From contig NZ_SACT01000011.1 of NCBI RefSeq assembly GCF_004016515.1, positions 1 through 64,000 on the forward strand: 64,000 bases of DNA. Reading direction: 5' to 3'. Of this stretch, positions 52,179 to 61,610 are shown piece after piece. The notes under the pieces were generated by a model. That model was not told the DNA's origin, searched no databases, and saw only the letters and a program-made list of their open reading frames with translations. This DNA comes from Rubrivivax albus. Its GTDB lineage: Bacteria > Pseudomonadota > Gammaproteobacteria > Burkholderiales > Burkholderiaceae_C. Each line of letters starts with the position of its first letter. Position 1 is the first letter of the stretch. A program made the position numbers and the translations under genes.

Positions 52179-52311
52179 GCGTGTGAGAGGTCATCCCGTG
52201 CGTGCCGGCCGGGTGGATACGGCGCTTGCGCCTGGTTACCCCAACACCCCTGTTCCGTGGTCCATTGCGGCCGAAAGGTATCGTAGGCGCCTGCGCCTGC
52301 TCAGTGTCCCC

Positions 52312-53064
52312 ATGTCCTACACCAACCTCACCAGGTCCATCCTGCCCGCCAAGCACCAGCCGGTCCCGGGCCATGACGCGGCCAGCGCCGAGGCCCTGCA
52401 CGGCGCCTTCACCATCCGACTGGCCCACGACGACGAGCGCACGGCCGCAGGCGCTCTGCTGGCGCAGCGCTACGCGTGGCGCGGCTACCGCACCGTCACG
52501 CTGCCGCGCGACCAGACCGGCTGGCGCACCACGCTCACGGCGCATGGCCGCGGCGACACGCCCATCGGCACGCTGACGCTGGAACTCGACGGCGGGCCCG
52601 AGGGCCTGTCGGCCGCGGCCGCCTTCGGCCCCGAGGTCGAAGCCATGCGGGCACGCGGCCTGCGGCTGGCCGAGTTCACCCGACTGGCGGTGGACACGGG
52701 TGTGCACAGCACGCGCGTGCTGGCCGGGCTGTTCCACGTCGGCTACATCGTGGCCCACCGGCTGCGCGCCTGCGACACGCTGCTGCTGGAGGTGAACCCT
52801 CGCCACGTGCGCTTCTACGAGCGCATGCTGGGCTGCCAGGTGGTCGGTGACGAACGGGTGCACCCCGGCGTGCAGGCACCGGCGGTGCTGCTATCGGCGC
52901 CCTTCGCGTACATCCGCGCCCAGATCCGTGCCCACGCCGGGACCGCGGAACTGGCGGGGAACGCCCGCTCCTTGTATCCGTTTGCGTTCGCCGTCGACGA
53001 GGAGAGCGGCATCCTCGCGCGCCTGCTGCAGGCCCAGGGGCGGACCGGCACCTCGGTCCACTGA
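52312..53064 (+). CDS. FeeM-like N-acyltransferase
   Basis: A 250-aa protein of the N-acyl amino acid synthase FeeM / acyl-homoserine-lactone-synthase-like fold in the GNAT superfamily. Recognisable family features: GTLTLELDG, RLAEFTRLAVDTGVHSTRVLAGLF, LLLEVNPRHVRFYERMLGC and QAPAVLLSAP. FeeM joins a long acyl chain from acyl-ACP to an amino acid such as tyrosine. The actual amine acceptor here is unknown. Start ATG 52312 is preferred to longer frames. It converges with trxC and stands alone, 133 bases after the binding-protein array. Confidence 0.8.
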   Translation: MSYTNLTRSILPAKHQPVPGHDAASAEALHGAFTIRLAHDDERTAAGALLAQRYAWRGYRTVTLPRDQTGWRTTLTAHGRGDTPIGTLTLELDGGPEGLSAAAAFGPEVEAMRARGLRLAEFTRLAVDTGVHSTRVLAGLFHVGYIVAHRLRACDTLLLEVNPRHVRFYERMLGCQVVGDERVHPGVQAPAVLLSAPFAYIRAQIRAHAGTAELAGNARSLYPFAFAVDEESGILARLLQAQGRTGTSVH

Positions 53065-53608: not shown

Positions 53609-54142
53609 GTGACCACTGCGCCCCCCGCCTTCCGCCAGCAGCTCATCGGGCAGATCCCGCGGCTGCGGCGGTACGCGCGCACGCTGGCCTTCGAACCGGA
53701 GCGGGCGGACGATCTGGTGCAGGCCACGCTGGAGCGCGGACTGATGCACTGGCACCAGTACGACCAGCGGCGCGACATCGGCGTGTGGCTGCTGTCCATC
53801 GCCCACAACGCCCACATGGACCAGCTGCGCCGCGACCGCCGCCTGTCCACCGTGGACCCGGCCGACCTGCAGGCGCTGCAGGACCGTGGCGGCGGCGACG
53901 CCGGCACCGACGTGGGCCTGCGCATGGACCTGCTGGCTGCGCTGGCCCAGCTGTCGGCCGAGCAGCGCGAATCGCTGCTGCTGGTGTGCGTGGAACAGCT
54001 CAGCTACGCCGAGGTGGCCGAGGTGATGCAGGTGCCGTTGGGCACCGTGATGTCGCGTGTCTGCCGCGCCCGTGCGGCGATGCGCCAGCTTCTCGAGGGC
54101 CGTGGCCCGGCGGTACAGCCGGCACTGCGGCGGGTGAAATGA
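53609..54142 (+). CDS. ECF RNA polymerase sigma factor
   Basis: A 177-aa ECF sigma factor starting at GTG 53609. Region 2 (IPRLRRYARTLAFEPERADDLVQATLERGL) and region 4 (LSAEQRESLLLVCVEQLSYAEVAEVMQVPLGTVMSRVCRARAAMR) are clear. It is followed by an overlapping anti-sigma gene (ATGA at 54139-54142). Position next to trxC suggests an oxidative or envelope-stress role, but the regulon is unknown. A candidate autoregulatory promoter lies upstream. Confidence 0.94.
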   Translation: MTTAPPAFRQQLIGQIPRLRRYARTLAFEPERADDLVQATLERGLMHWHQYDQRRDIGVWLLSIAHNAHMDQLRRDRRLSTVDPADLQALQDRGGGDAGTDVGLRMDLLAALAQLSAEQRESLLLVCVEQLSYAEVAEVMQVPLGTVMSRVCRARAAMRQLLEGRGPAVQPALRRVK

Positions 54143-54939
54143 CGAACGCACCGAGCGACGAACAACTCAGCGCCTGGCTGGACAGCGCGCTGCCCGACGA
54201 CGAACAGCAGCGCGTGGAAGCCTGGCTTGCCGCCAACCCGGAAGCCGAGGCCCGCGTGCGCGCCTGGGCCGCCGACCGCGACGCGCTGCGTGCGCTGGGC
54301 GACGTCTGGCTGGTCGGGCCGGTGCCCGAACGCCTGGTGCAGGTGGTGCAGCGCCCGGCCCAGGCACCGGCCTGGCGGCAGGCCGCCATGGCCGCTGGCC
54401 TGCTCGTGGCCGGCGCGGCGCTGGGCGCCGGCGGGCTGTGGCAATGGCAGCAGCATCAGGCGGGACCCACCGCCGCCGTGCAGGCCGGCGCCGCGCTGGC
54501 CGGCCCCACCGGCTGGGTCTCGCGTGCCGCCTACGCCCACGCCGTCTACGTGGCCGAGCCACGGCACGCGGTGGAGGTGCGGGCGCAGGAGGAGCACCTG
54601 GCGCGCTGGCTGACGCGGCGCATCGACGTCCCGGTGAAGCTGTTCGACCTGCGCGACCAGGGCTTCGAGCTCATCGGCGGCCGCCTGCTGCCCGACGGCG
54701 ATGGCAAGAGCGCGCAGCTGATGTACCAGGATGCCCAGGGCCTGCGCGTCACCGTCTACCTGCGCAAACCGCCCGACGGTACCGAGACGGCCTTCCGCTG
54801 GGAGCGGCAGGGCGAGCTGGGACTGTTCTACTGGGTCGAATCCGGCGCCGGCTATGCGCTGGTCGGTGCGCTGCCCAAGGCTACGCTGCTGGCGCTGGCG
54901 GAGGCGATCTACCGGCAGCACCCGGGGGCGGTTCGCTGA
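54139..54939 (+). CDS. Membrane anti-sigma factor
   Basis: A 266-aa protein overlapping the sigma gene by 4 bases. The N-terminal ~60 residues form an anti-sigma-like helical domain (LSAWLDSALPDDEQQRVEAWL). One transmembrane helix follows (about residues 80-100, AAMAAGLLVAGAALGAGGLW) and then a periplasmic domain of ~165 aa. No zinc-binding H-x3-C-x2-C motif is seen, so it is not a ZAS type. The periplasmic part (DVPVKLFDLRDQGFELIGGR) resembles domains in other putative transmembrane anti-sigma factors. It should hold the sigma factor at the membrane until a signal triggers proteolysis. Confidence 0.88.
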   Translation: MTNAPSDEQLSAWLDSALPDDEQQRVEAWLAANPEAEARVRAWAADRDALRALGDVWLVGPVPERLVQVVQRPAQAPAWRQAAMAAGLLVAGAALGAGGLWQWQQHQAGPTAAVQAGAALAGPTGWVSRAAYAHAVYVAEPRHAVEVRAQEEHLARWLTRRIDVPVKLFDLRDQGFELIGGRLLPDGDGKSAQLMYQDAQGLRVTVYLRKPPDGTETAFRWERQGELGLFYWVESGAGYALVGALPKATLLALAEAIYRQHPGAVR

Positions 54940-56241: not shown

Positions 56242-57507
56242 TCACGACGCTCGACTGGCAGGCCGCCGCGTGCGCTCCAGATGTTCGGCTAGGCGCACCG
56301 CGATCTCCCGCTTCGATTCCATCTCGACCAGCGGCGCCGAGGCCGAAAGCAGGTAGGCGCGATGCATGCCTGCGTCGGTGTAGTCCTCCTGGCGGTTGAG
56401 GATCACCGCGGCGTGGCCGGCATCCAGCCGGCGCTGACCGATCTGCACCAGATCGTCCAGCGTGCACCCGATCTCGAACTTGAAGCTCACAAGTTGCAGT
56501 GCAGGGTGCGCCTGCTGAACGAGGTCGACGACCTTTTGCGTGGGGCGCAGGTCCAGGCGCAGTGCCGGGTCTCCGCTGCGGAGCTTGCCTTCGAACGCGT
56601 GGCTCGGTGCGTAGTCGGCCACCGCGGCGGCGAAGATGCCAACTTCCGCGCCCACCGTGGCCAGGTGTTCCAGGACGGTGTCGCGGTACTGCGCAAAGGT
56701 ACTCACGCGGTGCACGTTCAGCCAGGTCGGCGTCGGCATCGCGGCGCTGCCCAGCAACAGCGTCACCTCCGCACCGCGCCGGTGGAGTTCGCCAGCGATC
56801 TCGATGCCCAGCGTGCCGCGGAACTTGTTGGTGATGCGCCGCACACCGTCGATCGGCACAGGGGTAGGCCCGGCGGTCACCAGGATGCGTGCGCCCTTCA
56901 ACGGCGACGACGAGACCACCCGGCAGGCCTCGCTGACGATCGCGTCGATCTCTGGCAGATTGTGCTTGCCATGTGCGTCGCGCGGCCGCATGACGGAAAC
57001 GCCCCAGGCCTGCAATTGCACGAGGCTGTCGTGCAGCACGGGGTTGTGCATAGTGCCGTGCATCGTCGGCACCAGCATGACCTTGGCACGCCCGCGGGCC
57101 ATCAGCCCCAGCGCCGACGCCAGCGTCGTCGTCAGCGGGCCGTCGGCGATGCCGTGGCGGCACTTGTTGATCGTGTTGTAGGTGGCCGGCGCGACCAGGT
57201 ACAGGTCGAACGGCCGGCTGGCCGCGAGGTGCTCCGAGTCCGGCGACAGGGCGCCCACCACCGGATGGGTCGAGGCCCACGTCAGCGCGTCGCGCGTCGT
57301 GTAGCGCAACGCTTCCGCGGACGCATAGCACACCACCTCCGCCTGCTGGCGCCTCAGGGCCCGGGCAAGCAGCGGTGCCTTCATCGCAGCGATGCCGCCG
57401 CTGACCAGCAAGGCCACGCGACGCCCGGCCAGGCCCTGGCCAACTACGCGCACGTCGTGGTCGCCGACTTCTGGGCTTTGCGGCGGCTGGATCGGTTCAA
57501 CGGTCAT
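56242..57507 (-). CDS. Diverged CoaBC paralogue (HFCD flavoprotein plus CoaB-like domain)
   Basis: A 421-aa two-domain protein like bifunctional CoaBC. The N-terminal flavoprotein domain (about residues 25-205) keeps the catalytic His region (DSEHLAASRPFDLYLVAPAT), but the PAMN motif reads PTMHGTMHNP and the Cys-containing flap (ACGxxGxGRM) of CoaC is absent. The C-terminal CoaB-like domain (about 210-410) keeps ILVTAGPTPVPIDGVRRITN, AAAVADYAPS, FEGKLRSGD and FKFEIG. It overlaps the transglutaminase-like gene by 11 bases, implying a coupled function. With an accessory context and altered active site it is probably not the housekeeping CoA enzyme (inference). Confidence 0.82.
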   Translation of the reverse strand: MTVEPIQPPQSPEVGDHDVRVVGQGLAGRRVALLVSGGIAAMKAPLLARALRRQQAEVVCYASAEALRYTTRDALTWASTHPVVGALSPDSEHLAASRPFDLYLVAPATYNTINKCRHGIADGPLTTTLASALGLMARGRAKVMLVPTMHGTMHNPVLHDSLVQLQAWGVSVMRPRDAHGKHNLPEIDAIVSEACRVVSSSPLKGARILVTAGPTPVPIDGVRRITNKFRGTLGIEIAGELHRRGAEVTLLLGSAAMPTPTWLNVHRVSTFAQYRDTVLEHLATVGAEVGIFAAAVADYAPSHAFEGKLRSGDPALRLDLRPTQKVVDLVQQAHPALQLVSFKFEIGCTLDDLVQIGQRRLDAGHAAVILNRQEDYTDAGMHRAYLLSASAPLVEMESKREIAVRLAEHLERTRRPASRAS

Positions 57508-58366
57508 GCATGCTCCTGTCGTTTTGCTGGGCGGCCGGATCCCGCAGGCGGAGTCGCCAGCGCTGCCAGGCCTCGCTGGCGACGAAGGCAGCGTGCAGGG
57601 CGGGCCGCTGCTCCCGAAGCCAGACGAAGAAGCTGTCCTGTACGCTCCTGACGCTCTGGTGCTTGTGCGCATGCATGCGGCAGTGCTCGAGGTAGAGGTT
57701 GAAGACCGCCAGCACCTGCGGCGCTGTGCGGCGCCGCTTCTCGAGCATCCTGTCGATGTCGGGGCTGGGATGCTCGCTGCGACGGACCAGGTGGCCGGGT
57801 TCGATGTGCAGCCTTGCGTGATCGTCGCCGCCGAAGGCCACCAGGCGCGACTGCGGCGACAGGTGCACCGTGCGTTCGGACAGCATGCGGTCGTCCGTCG
57901 GGTCCGCTTCGAGCCAGCGGCCGCCGAGCAGCACGCAGCCACTGACGTGATTCGATTCATGGCTGACGAAGACCTTGAATCGATCGGAACACAGCGGACC
58001 GAAGTACTCCCGGGTGCGCACGCGGTGCACGTGGAACCCGGACGGGATGCCAATGGACCTCAGCATCGCAGCCATCAGGTTGGCCTTGTTGGAACACGAG
58101 CCGGCGCGCAGCCTTAGCGTCTCCGACGCGCGATGCCTATGGATGCCGACCACGTACCGGATCTCGTCGCGCGTCCAGTGGAACACGCGGACGGCGCGGT
58201 CGCGATCGGTCCGCGCGCCGCGCGTGATGTCCGCCGCGGCGTCCCGCACGGGCTCGCTGGCCGCGTCGCAGTAGCGGCTGGCCTGCACGAAGGCTGGCGG
58301 CACGCCGTCGGGCGCGTTCGGCACGTGCCGCTGATGCGCAACGTGTTCGGTTCGGATGTGGTGCAT
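57497..58366 (-). CDS. Transglutaminase-like (papain-fold) protein
   Basis: A 289-aa protein from ATG 58366, with GGGAG upstream. The transglutaminase-core fold spans about residues 35-165: putative triad Cys91 (LRAGSCSNKANLMAAMLRS), His140 (SHESNHVSG) and Asp155 (GGRWLEADPTDD). The remaining ~120 residues are basic and His-rich (DRMLEKRRRTAPQVLAVF, CRMHAHKHQS) and match nothing I know. No signal peptide, so cytoplasmic. The stop overlaps the CoaBC-like start by 11 bases. Possible roles are peptide amidation, crosslinking or proteolysis; substrate unknown. Confidence 0.78.
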   Translation of the reverse strand: MHHIRTEHVAHQRHVPNAPDGVPPAFVQASRYCDAASEPVRDAAADITRGARTDRDRAVRVFHWTRDEIRYVVGIHRHRASETLRLRAGSCSNKANLMAAMLRSIGIPSGFHVHRVRTREYFGPLCSDRFKVFVSHESNHVSGCVLLGGRWLEADPTDDRMLSERTVHLSPQSRLVAFGGDDHARLHIEPGHLVRRSEHPSPDIDRMLEKRRRTAPQVLAVFNLYLEHCRMHAHKHQSVRSVQDSFFVWLREQRPALHAAFVASEAWQRWRLRLRDPAAQQNDRSMHDR

Positions 58367-58742
58367 CGGTGTGGACTCCCTGTCGGCGCCGACGCGGGGG
58401 TTCGATGCCCCTTTGCGTCCCGTCGGGACCACTGCCGCCGCCAGCCATCGATGGTTCCGGCGTCACGCCGCCCTCGCATCACCAACTTGCAGTACGCGAC
58501 CGAGCACTTCCGACAGGCCCCTTCGGCGGGGCAGGCGCCGTCGGCGGGCGTGTTGGCCACGTGAAGCACGCGCGCAGGGACGGCGCATCGCACAGCGTGC
58601 GGCGAGTGGAACTGCCGGTCTTCAGAGGGCGCGCAGCGTCCAGAGCTTGTTCACACTGCAGGCAGGGTCGCGAAGGCCCATCAATTCGGGCCCATCCAGG
58701 CGCTGCGATGTCCGACGTATTGACGACGGCGCCGCAGCCCGC
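58367..58742 (-). other. 376-bp gap inside the cluster, with a Cys-rich open frame
   Basis: Between the methyltransferase-like and transglutaminase-like genes. On the minus strand, a frame starting at GTG 58593 reads MRCAVPARVLHVANTPADGA and continues with CPAEGACRKCSVAYC; its first ~37 codons have genome-like third-position GC, then the bias fades and the frame runs into the transglutaminase gene in another phase. It could be a small precursor or regulatory peptide, a remnant, or chance. A 19-codon frame at 58681 (MGLRDPACSVNKLWTLRAL) is another possibility. Confidence 0.3.
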
Positions 58743-59267
58743 TCATCCCATCCGCGCCAGAGCACGACTCTCCACGCGCGCCGATCTCCAGTAGTAGATG
58801 CCGACGATCAGCGCCACCAGTGCCAACCACAGCGAGCCGCTGGAAATGAAGACACCAATCAGGATCGTCACGTTGCTCACGTAGATCGGGTGGGCAATCC
58901 AGCGATACGGCCCAGCCTTGACCCTCTCCGGCGGCACCCTCAGGTCGTAGCACGGGCTGTAGTTCGCACCCAATGCACGAATCGACGCCTCGAACCCGAA
59001 CAGACCCGCCAGCGAGACGAACGACCCGAACAACTGCAGCGCAGCGCAGTCATGGATCTTCAGAAGGAACTGCCAGTCCATCCAGTAGCTGCAGACGGCC
59101 ACCACGGTGCCCAGGGGGACCAGGGTCACGTATACGGGAAGGAAACTCGCGTCCGACGCCAATTCGGCGCGTTCCTTGGGATAGCGTGAATTCAGTGCCC
59201 GATAACGCATCGACGAGAACACGACGGCAAAGATCAGAACGACCGTCGAAAGCACCTGGGCAGTCAT
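58743..59267 (-). CDS. Isoprenylcysteine carboxyl methyltransferase-like membrane protein
   Basis: A 174-aa integral-membrane protein with about four helices (LSTVVLIFAVVFSSMRY, then VYVTLVPLGTVVAVCSYW, and two C-terminal helices). The ICMT/phospholipid-methyltransferase signature is visible: VKAGPYRWIAHPIYVSN, where GPY...HP binds SAM. The family methylates carboxylates, lipids or thiols at the membrane. No prenylation system is expected in this organism, so the substrate is unknown. It overlaps the next upstream gene by 4 bases (59264-59267), indicating one operon. Confidence 0.85.
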   Translation of the reverse strand: MTAQVLSTVVLIFAVVFSSMRYRALNSRYPKERAELASDASFLPVYVTLVPLGTVVAVCSYWMDWQFLLKIHDCAALQLFGSFVSLAGLFGFEASIRALGANYSPCYDLRVPPERVKAGPYRWIAHPIYVSNVTILIGVFISSGSLWLALVALIVGIYYWRSARVESRALARMG

Positions 59268-59677
59268 GCTTCGCCGATGACGATGATCATGGCCGTTGCG
59301 TCGATGGCGATCGGGCCGACCTCGGATCGCGCCTTCGCGTGGAACTTGTTGCGCGACAGCTTGCGGAACTCCGTGAACTCGATTCTCTGGACCAGCGCCT
59401 TCTCGTCGACGACCATGTCGCGCAGGGATATCGAGAGCGACGTCGGCCAGACCTTCAATGCCTCGGCCGCATGCACGTCCGCGTTCAAGCCGAGCCTGTT
59501 ACACGCGTAGACATACGTCAACTTCTGCATCTGCACCAGCGCGGCGATGAAGGTCAGATGGCTCGGGCTGTTCAGCATCGCTGACTGATACGTGCGATCG
59601 AACTGCGCCTCGATCCACGTGCCTCCGATCCTGAATTCCCGGACGTGCAGTTCCTCCAGAACATGTCGTTCCGGCAT
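59264..59677 (-). CDS. Small protein of possible hotdog fold
   Basis: A 137-aa protein from ATG 59677 (a longer frame begins at 59752). I do not recognise a named family, but the layout NSPSHLTFIAALVQMQKLTYV in the middle and a beta-rich end (IEFTEFRKLSRNKFHAKARSE, GPIAIDATAMIIVIG) resembles hotdog-fold thioesterases or FabA/FabZ-like proteins. No catalytic His/Glu pair can be assigned. It has a low-GC composition compared with genes earlier in the window. It overlaps the methyltransferase-like gene by 4 bases and is the first gene of the four-gene cluster. Confidence 0.6.
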   Translation of the reverse strand: MPERHVLEELHVREFRIGGTWIEAQFDRTYQSAMLNSPSHLTFIAALVQMQKLTYVYACNRLGLNADVHAAEALKVWPTSLSISLRDMVVDEKALVQRIEFTEFRKLSRNKFHAKARSEVGPIAIDATAMIIVIGEA

Positions 59678-59789
59678 GACATTGAAATGAATGCGACAGA
59701 CGGATCCGCATGGCACAACCGACTGGAGATCCGTGCCTGCCATTTCAGGCAATTGCTGCCTTGAACTCAGAGGTCATCTCCCGGGTTGA

Positions 59790-60327
59790 TCAACCAGACC
59801 GAGCTGTGCCTGATCGCCTTCGCAGCCATGCCAGCGCGGTCAGCCCCAGCGCCAGCAAGCCCGCCGCCGCCGGCTCGGGCACCGCGGACAACACGATCTG
59901 CTGCCCCGCCAGACCGGGCAGACCGACGACGTTGACATACACCGCCCCGGTGCCCTGCGAGAGCCTGTCCGACTACAGCCCCGGATAGGTGCTGGCCGAT
60001 GCCTGCAGCACGAAGGTCTCGAAGCTTAATGTGCCGTTGAGATCGAAGAACCCCACCCCGTAAAACGCCACTTCGTAGATCGCTGCGTTGCGCGTGAGCG
60101 CCAGCCGTAATCACGTCCGGCGAAACGGCAACGTTGAAGATGCCGGCAAAGTTGTCCAGCGCGCTGCCGGGGCCGACGAGCGTGGCCGTGCGGAACACCT
60201 GCGACTGGCACGGGAAGAGGTAGTCGACGCGTACTTCGTCACCCGGCCGCAGCCCGGCAGCCAGCGCCGGCGTCAGCCCGGACAGCGCCGCAGCCACGAC
60301 GGAAGCCAGAGAACCCAAACCGTGCAT
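59790..60327 (-). pseudogene. Broken PEP-CTERM exported protein
   Basis: The frame starts at ATG 60327 with a signal peptide (LASVVAAALSGLTPALAAG), then a mature part (RVDYLFPCQSQVFRTATLVG, ALDNFAGIFNVAVSPDVIT). Near 60102-60106 the frame shifts by one base. In the shifted frame sensible protein continues (LALTRNAAIYEVAFYGVGF, DLNGTLSFETFVLQASAST) to an in-frame TAG at 59973-59975, and then to a perfect PEP-CTERM signal: VPEPAAAGLLALGLTALAWL, RRR-rich tail, stop 59790-59792. So one frameshift and one nonsense codon interrupt it (or sequencing errors). PEP-CTERM proteins are anchored/sorted by exosortase. Confidence 0.8.
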
Positions 60328-60349
60328 GACGGCCCCTGCAGTGCGCCAG

Positions 60350-61492
60350 TCACGCGTTCGACAGATGACGGCCAGTGGGTGCACCGTGCCGCCGGCTGCG
60401 CACTCCCAACAGGGCCAGGCCGAGTGCGGTCAGCCACAGCGTGCCCACCACGGGCACCTGCTGCGCATTGAGCGCCTGCAACGCCAGCAGGGCTTCATCG
60501 TCGTTCATCTCGGAGAGCACCAGCGGCGAGAAGCCGTCGGTCTCGGCCACCAGCAACCCGCCTTCGACCCGCGTGGCGAGCAGTTCCCAGAGCCCCAGGT
60601 CCTCGTCGAAGTGGAAGACCTTCAGCGCCAGCGGATTCACACCCACGGCATACGGGATGTAGATGCTGGACGTGCCGACCAGGTTGCCGCTGACGTCGAT
60701 GTCCCAGGCCTGCAGCCGGGTGGAGAAGGTGTTGAAGACGAAGAGGTCTGCTTCGGCCAGCGTCGCCGCCGGGTTCACCGCAACCTGCAGGTCGCCATCG
60801 GCCGCGAAGTCGATCGACAGCCCCCCGGAACTGCCGCCAGCGGCACCACCGAAGAAGTCCACCGGCCCGCTGCCGTCGGAGACGGACTGACGCTCCTGGA
60901 TGGTGAGGAAGCCGTTCGTGAGCGTGTTCGGAATCGGGTTCACGCGGTCGCCCTGCCGCGTGGCCGCGTAGCTGCCAACCCCCTGCAGGTTGTAGGCGAA
61001 GTAGTCCAGCGGCTCGCGTGCAGCCAGGTTGGTGAAGCCGTCGGAGTAGTACATCACGAAGTCATTGAACCCCGTGCCGTTGCTGCTCATGCCATTGCTG
61101 AAAGTCTCGGGCACGTCGCCGTGCACCTGCACCGTGCCGGTAACCAGGCCCTGGGTGTTGAAATAGACCTGCACATAGGTGTTGGCCGTCGACCAGGTCG
61201 TGTCGGCGGCGGGGTTGGACGGGTTGGGCTGGAAGGTCTGCGCCTCGCTGAAGACGATGGTGTCCGGCCGCACCTTGACCGAATCCCTGCCCTGCGACAC
61301 GGCAGCGTCAATGAGCGCTGTGTCGACGGTTGCCGACCACGACCCGGTCAGCACCGAGTACGGCGTGCCGCTGACGAAGAAGCCCAGGAAACTGCTCTCA
61401 AGCGTCAGCACGGCGCCATGGGCAGGCGCCATCGAGGTCACGGCGACGAACGCGAGCCCACCGACTCCGCGACGGAAGTGAGCCATGCACAT
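60350..61492 (-). CDS. Exported protein with PEP-CTERM-like C-terminus
   Basis: A 380-aa protein starting at ATG 61492 with GAGGAGG 7 bases upstream. Signal peptide (GVGGLAFVAVTSMAPAHG), then a beta-rich mature domain (residues ~30-340) with many Thr, Ser, Asn and Gly and no recognised enzyme motif. The end has the PEP-CTERM layout of short motif, hydrophobic helix and Arg cluster, but the motif is VPVVG in place of VPEPG (VPVVGTLWLTALGLALLG, then VRSRR). It may be a variant sorting signal or a degenerate one. It lies 22 bases upstream of the broken PEP-CTERM gene, same strand. Confidence 0.75.
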   Translation of the reverse strand: MCMAHFRRGVGGLAFVAVTSMAPAHGAVLTLESSFLGFFVSGTPYSVLTGSWSATVDTALIDAAVSQGRDSVKVRPDTIVFSEAQTFQPNPSNPAADTTWSTANTYVQVYFNTQGLVTGTVQVHGDVPETFSNGMSSNGTGFNDFVMYYSDGFTNLAAREPLDYFAYNLQGVGSYAATRQGDRVNPIPNTLTNGFLTIQERQSVSDGSGPVDFFGGAAGGSSGGLSIDFAADGDLQVAVNPAATLAEADLFVFNTFSTRLQAWDIDVSGNLVGTSSIYIPYAVGVNPLALKVFHFDEDLGLWELLATRVEGGLLVAETDGFSPLVLSEMNDDEALLALQALNAQQVPVVGTLWLTALGLALLGVRSRRHGAPTGRHLSNA

Positions 61493-61610
61493 CGATGCGC
61501 CTCCTCGTGTCCTGTTCAGCATCCGCCCCTCGGTTGGGCCGTCAACCCACGCATGCGACGTTCCCTGCGCATGGCCGCGCGAGCATCACCCGATCGGAGG
61601 ACGTCGCACA

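Follow-up and report, generated by a model that had tools for sequence, protein, structure and literature searches.

Decarboxylation of phosphopantothenoylcysteine (PPC) is a step of coenzyme A (CoA) synthesis, a drug-target pathway, and flavoproteins of the HFCD family also decarboxylate the C-terminal Cys of peptides in the pathways of ribosomally synthesized and post-translationally modified peptides (RiPPs). The closest described systems are the canonical CoaBC proteins, in which CoaC and CoaB are fused in this order (model TIGR00521, e.g., 6TGV), the stand-alone CoaC/PPCDC enzymes (plant Hal3, human PPCDC, and Planctomycetota CoaC), and the peptide decarboxylases EpiD and CypD. The structure of Mycobacterium smegmatis CoaBC has been solved (PMC7794376, cited from an excerpt), and an excerpt of PMC9604783 states that PPC decarboxylation needs a His together with the Asn and Met of a PXMNXXMW motif in its first step and a Cys in its second. 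We analyzed a 64,000-nucleotide stretch of the Rubrivivax albus genome (contig NZ_SACT01000011.1, positions 1 to 64,000; hereafter the window), which carries on its minus strand a gene for a transglutaminase-like protein (TG) followed by a gene for a second, divergent CoaBC (CoaBC2).

The CoaBC2 gene (56242..57507, minus strand) encodes a protein of 421 amino acids, in which a CoaC (flavoprotein) domain of a variant designated the MH type is fused to CoaB (DFP), as in canonical CoaBC. The Pfam scores were 72.5 bits for Flavoprotein and 116.8 bits for DFP. Against TIGR00521, the protein scored about 217.7 bits (217.8 in the genome search), approximately 2 bits below the curated cut-off of 219.7, which was exceeded by two MH-type relatives from other genomes (226.1 and 245.4 bits). 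The first-pass annotation, made from the sequence alone, had taken the gene for a CoaBC paralogue and asked whether it was the sole copy. It is indeed a paralogue, since the same genome (5.3 Mb, 74 contigs, 99.98% complete) encodes an intact canonical CoaBC of 430.3 bits on a different contig. CoaBC2 is only 30–36% identical to this canonical copy, its flap is shorter by 6 columns, and it has its own motifs, PTMHGTMH and GKHNLP.

Proteins of this type are rare among the relatives of R. albus. Of 119 related genomes, including 71 congeners, one had such a gene (G100, from the same order, 47% identity), and it likewise has its own canonical CoaBC; six of the 119 had no match to either CoaBC type. 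None was found in the 71 congeners sampled or, at an E-value of 1e-60, in another 397 genomes from the phylum. When species genomes were scanned by pattern, 30 relatives with 43–60% identity emerged, comprising 18 Rhodobacteraceae-type loci and 12 loci in 11 other genomes, some with the CoaC half only. The latter genomes are labelled as Planctomycetia, Planctomycetota, or Phycisphaerales, Acidobacteriota, Deltaproteobacteria (two), Limnothrix, Proteobacteria, and unnamed bacteria. The motifs AEHLSD, PTMHGTMH, and DAYGKHNLP are frequent in the MH type, which was split from the canonical rows with a support of 100/100 in a maximum-likelihood tree (two full-length CoaBC as canonical rows, four CoaC domains in a second tree; L032 omitted as a fragment). 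The placement of the window and G100 proteins within the MH clade was unsettled in the tree. Mobile elements offered little: 53 plasmid records matched CoaBC2, with identity of at most 35% among the 20 matches listed; viral contigs scanned with CoaBC2 and with HD, a neighboring gene described below, gave nothing useful apart from one 27% partial match; and a PHROGs search gave nothing convincing.

The catalytic positions of both halves are largely retained. H93, which corresponds to the CoaC active-site His (its role is taken from the excerpt of PMC9604783), is invariant in 17 aligned rows, including the canonical CoaBC of the same genome. In the MH type, His and Met are kept, but a second His replaces the Asn, giving PTMHGTMH instead of PXMNXXMW, and the redox Cys of the CoaC flap is absent from all 16 MH-type rows; these two features distinguish the type from the stand-alone CoaC/PPCDC enzymes, with which it shares membership of the HFCD family by sequence. 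The loss of the textbook Asn and Cys suggested a degenerate pseudoenzyme, a candidate that was set aside since the aligned M. smegmatis CoaBC (6TGV) has both features, a PAMH..MW motif and no Cys in the flap. Therefore, these changes do not argue for lost function. The window protein keeps 75 of the 84 columns invariant in 11 full-length proteins that are the only CoaBC copy of their genomes, the G100 protein keeps 76, and the Rhodobacteraceae type 76–78 (L023 and CoaC-only rows excluded; leave-one-out values among the only copies ranged from 84/84 to 84/99). The retained residues include H93, M149, H150, M153, H154, G180, K181, N183, and K308, and the nine losses spare all of them, although one, A91S, falls in the AEHLSD motif. 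In the CoaB half, N227 and K308 are kept in alignment with 6TGV, and we take them to be the equivalents of E. coli CoaB N210 and K289 in numbering and role. The Rhodobacteraceae copies share changes at several columns, such as Y110, A121, and N371; these, together with the losses in G100 described below, are a possible sign of tuning.

The function of the MH type is indicated by the genomes in which it occurs without a canonical counterpart. We searched 29 genomes, reached through the CoaBC2 loci plus G100 (the genome of locus L014 was not in the set). Canonical CoaBC above the family cut-off was also present in 16 of the 17 Rhodobacteraceae-type genomes (that of G133 is cut by a contig end) and in G100. 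A Flavoprotein family search found no canonical CoaC besides the MH type in any of the 11 other genomes (G120, G121, G123, G124, G136, G139, and G143–G147), six of which have one further Flavoprotein-family protein and five none. Among the 41 genomes of the Planctomycetota family to which G145 belongs, eight had the MH type, 31 had a hit as strong as those of canonical CoaC (85.6–117.3 bits), two had neither, and none had both (Fisher p 4.7e-7, a value that ignores kinship; the sequences were checked for 8/8 MH-type and 6/31 canonical-strength proteins). Likewise, in the seven genomes of the Acidobacteriota family of G124, five had the MH type, two the canonical one, and none both. In all, no canonical CoaC was found in 21 MH-only genomes from Planctomycetota, Acidobacteriota, and other groups. 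The remaining 11 Flavoprotein hits in these genomes were considered as canonical CoaC candidates, one of them, in G147, scoring 113.9 bits, within the canonical range; the ten tested were all UbiX above the TIGR00421 cut-off, and the eleventh was UbiX-like by eye. Nine CoaCs from other Planctomycetota, among them the six with the lowest scores apart from G146, were all canonical by motif, and one canonical protein of this phylum reached only 68.5 bits. Since bit score alone thus fails to separate the types, the MH assignments rest on sequence. Moreover, G124, G143, G145, and G146 have retained a canonical CoaB as a separate protein and should therefore make PPC and need a decarboxylase, for which the MH type is the sole candidate found. 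Because 21 genomes hold the MH type and no canonical CoaC was found in them, the MH type is most likely a true alternative PPC synthetase/decarboxylase.

The second member of the pair, TG (57497..58366, minus strand), encodes 289 amino acids. Its open frame extends to 58432, and the most likely start is ATG 58366, which is also that of database entry P0009; its last 11 bases are shared with the beginning of CoaBC2 (57497–57507). The protein matched Transglut_core (PF01841) with 62.7 bits against a cut-off of 23, in line with its original description as a papain-fold, transglutaminase-like protein, and its best PDB relative by profile was 3isr (E 1.5e-7). C91, H140, and D155 (numbering of the first row of the alignment) are invariant in 15/15 TG rows and, from the fold, presumably form a Cys-His-Asp triad. 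TG thus shares its core and triad with transglutaminase-like cysteine proteases such as 3ISR and differs from them in the coupling of its gene to CoaBC2. TG is located directly upstream of CoaBC2 in 20/20 loci classed as second-copy (18 of the Rhodobacteraceae type, that of G100, and that of the window; in L017, only the end of TG is on the contig) and in 0/20 testable only-copy loci (10 from the pattern scan and 10 further ones with shorter flanks of 0.4–1.9 kb; L004 and L023 were left out as their upstream sequence is missing), the profile used being built partly from those TGs, with the window TG alone finding the partner in 17 of 18. Neighbors of the Rhodobacteraceae pairs scanned included genes for a branched-chain amino acid ABC transporter and an accompanying AMP-binding ligase, for RNase HII, and for an adenine methylase; since the neighbors differ between these loci, the TG-CoaBC2 pair is the unit. 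An uncharacterized conserved association, as the first-pass annotation had supposed, therefore exists in the form of this pair. That annotation knew of no described pathway with its combination of genes, and we found no paper on a TG-CoaBC pair or an MH-type CoaBC in the open-licence library searched.

Distant relatives of the window TG occur on plasmids, none with identity above 60%, and the Rhodobacteraceae TG had no plasmid match. In four of the five plasmid regions examined, the TG relative is clustered with genes of the acyl-CoA, P450, or carrier-protein type, the Azoarcus region being the exception, and these contexts hint, no more, at acyl-thioester or amide chemistry. On two actinobacterial plasmids (L136, 4983–6779, and L193, 4980–9568), the TG relatives stand beside genes for P450s and for proteins that carry a BtrH N-terminal domain; small transglutaminase-like proteins thus recur in a second context of this sort.

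We favor, with moderate confidence, an accessory TG-CoaBC2 module, presumably acquired, that makes and probably reworks thiols of the 4'-phosphopantetheine type. The CoaB half would most likely still couple a phosphopantothenate-type acid to cysteine in a nucleotide-dependent reaction, and the CoaC half would decarboxylate the product with the use of flavin mononucleotide, yielding 4'-phosphopantetheine or a close analogue. TG, with its Cys-His-Asp residues, would then most likely hydrolyze or transfer an acyl/amide or thioester group of this product or its derivatives. The CoaBC2 half of this reading draws on comparative evidence, namely its paralogy, its separate clade, the retained catalytic positions, and the mutual exclusion of the MH type and canonical CoaC in two families, while the reaction in R. 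albus and each step given to TG are what we infer.

Several observations weigh against this explanation. The window TG is only 23–25% identical to four Rhodobacteraceae TGs, which have an extra N-terminal region, so that the TGs may act on different substrates. Since 18 of the 20 TG-linked loci come from one bacterial family, the pair is represented by only about three independent lineages; a single clade of TG-linked copies is compatible with the tree but not demonstrated by it. In G134, the seventeenth Rhodobacteraceae-type genome, the other copy is a strong CoaB-only fragment. The G100 protein lacks the otherwise invariant K115 and D122. Most of the only-copy genomes are metagenome-assembled, and two of the 41 genomes in the Planctomycetota family have neither type; hence, the apparent absence of a canonical gene may in some cases be due to assembly gaps. 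The label of G121 is that of a cyanobacterium, which may reflect contamination. Finally, the CoaB Asn is replaced by T or P in four of the 11 full-length only copies (L006, L007, L174 of G982, and L028); the CoaB half of such copies may be decaying, and G124, which carries L007, has a separate canonical CoaB.

Two other functions of the pair appear possible but unlikely. CoaBC2 could be a bypass enzyme tolerating CoaBC-directed antimetabolites, with TG degrading such amides, the two forming a self-protection pair. The duplication of an essential metabolic enzyme whose canonical form is intact in the same genome, the accessory and patchy occurrence of the pair (1/119 relatives, 0/397 other genomes of the phylum), and the existence of a CoaBC-directed antibiotic, CJ-15,801, mentioned in the abstract of PMC12172042, are consistent with this option, but no antibiotic biosynthesis, export, or resistance gene was present among the neighbors scanned, which covered part of the neighbors at part of the loci. 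A comparably low probability is assigned to a neofunctionalized ligase/decarboxylase acting on the C-terminal Cys of a peptide or on another acid, with TG as a peptidase or amide synthase, in a small natural-product pathway. The RiPP role of HFCD proteins, which the first-pass annotation had brought up, and the four plasmid regions with acyl-CoA, P450, or carrier-protein genes agree with it, and the chains of EpiD and CypD, members of the same family, were weak PDB matches of the CoaBC2 profile. However, the HFCD half scored only 16.8 bits against the CypD model NF033753 (cut-off 215), CoaBC2 retains the CoaB domain that distinguishes it from EpiD and CypD, the catalytic positions and most of those invariant in the only copies are kept, and the gap upstream of TG holds no convincing peptide gene; the RiPP-type idea is therefore weak.

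A carrier cycle outside CoA synthesis seems less probable still. CoaBC2 would couple Cys to phosphopantothenate and decarboxylate the product, after which TG would cleave the amide, free cysteamine or pass the cysteamine arm to another acceptor, and return phosphopantothenate. If true, this would be a dedicated cysteine-to-cysteamine pathway, possibly taurine-directed or protective-thiol, derived from a borrowed CoA enzyme. That CoaBC2 is a recently acquired extra copy without any role, already inactive or in decay, is improbable: its rarity in the genus (0/71 congeners sampled) fits, but the frames are intact with a GC content of 0.86–0.87 at third codon positions, the catalytic positions are kept, and the pair is conserved across distant taxa.

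Upstream of the pair lie two more minus-strand genes, which had been joined with it into one operon. All four frames are located as originally reported, and both short overlaps, 57497–57507 and 59264–59267, were correct, whereas two starts had to be moved. One is that of TG, whose start at ATG 58366 leaves a gap of 376 bases (58367..58742), and therefore there is no chain of overlaps across all four genes. The other is that of HD (59264..59743): comparison with homologues showed that a conserved SxCxxxFNVMP precedes the Met assigned earlier, so that the gene begins upstream of position 59677, and ATG 59743 is its most likely start (about 159 amino acids). Open reading frames of at least 20 amino acids in the gap included no compelling small peptide gene, and scans for promoters, terminators, and RNA families gave nothing standing out there.

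The gene downstream of HD, which it overlaps by 4 bases, encodes a membrane methyltransferase of the ICMT/PEMT superfamily (58743..59267, 174 amino acids). It matched PEMT (PF04191, 39.8 bits) and, just above the cut-off of 24, ICMT (PF04140, 24.6 bits), which supports the superfamily part of the label ICMT-like; the score against the ICMT equivalog NF040696, 37.9 bits, was far under the cut-off of 160. HD represents a rare orphan family, whose profile found 38 proteins, counting that of the window, in a set of 5.8 billion. The frame 59264–59677 matched nothing in Pfam or NCBIfam, and HD had no convincing relative in Pfam or PDB. Among 25 family members there were only scattered weak matches to unrelated families, and the PDB searches gave no hotdog chain; the suggested hotdog fold thus has no sequence support. 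HD was found in none of the 119 relatives, 368 other genomes of the class, and 397 other genomes of the phylum, the window's own copy being recovered each time, and in none of the 29 genomes reached through the other CoaBC2 loci, a search without a positive control (these samples overlap in part). Plasmid searches found neither HD nor ICMT.

The GC content is 0.594 in HD, 0.606 in ICMT, 0.682 in TG, and 0.687 in CoaBC2, compared with 0.702 for the whole window; the lower-GC segment initially described thus exists in HD and ICMT but hardly extends to TG and CoaBC2. In view of the gap, the GC step from 0.61 to 0.68, and the failure to find HD in the 29 genomes, HD-ICMT and TG-CoaBC2 look like two separate units, the former being probably an unrelated neighbor of the latter, and the conserved association is that of TG and CoaBC2. 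A single four-gene operon and pathway, although the genes are consecutive, on a common strand, and linked by two short overlaps, is very unlikely on these same grounds.

Other features were noted in this part of the window. A FeeM-type N-acyl amino acid synthase is encoded at 52183–53064 (plus strand; PF21926, 153.8 bits), about 3 kb from the CoaBC2 locus. It is followed at 53609–54939 (plus strand) by frames resembling an extracytoplasmic function sigma factor and then a membrane anti-sigma factor, as judged by eye from the translations. Beyond HD, at 59767–60384 (minus strand), there is an apparent remnant of a PEP-CTERM-type secreted protein, whose frame seems shifted, with a VPEP...LRRR tail in another frame (by eye). 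A protein of 390 amino acids encoded at 60350–61522 (minus strand) begins with a signal-like segment and ends in a PEP-CTERM-like tail; it matched no Pfam family and gave just a weak NCBIfam hit to PEP-CTERM (E 0.03).

MH-type CoaC takes the place of the missing canonical enzyme in genomes of the Planctomycetota family examined. Overall, the data point to a distinct lineage of PPC decarboxylase that occurs instead of the canonical enzyme in several bacterial groups and that, where the canonical enzyme is kept, has been recruited as an extra copy beside a papain-fold protein. If CoaBC2 makes phosphopantetheine, the apparent gap in the CoA pathway of the former groups would be filled; if the pair does other work with the same chemistry, it would represent an unrecorded thiol pathway.

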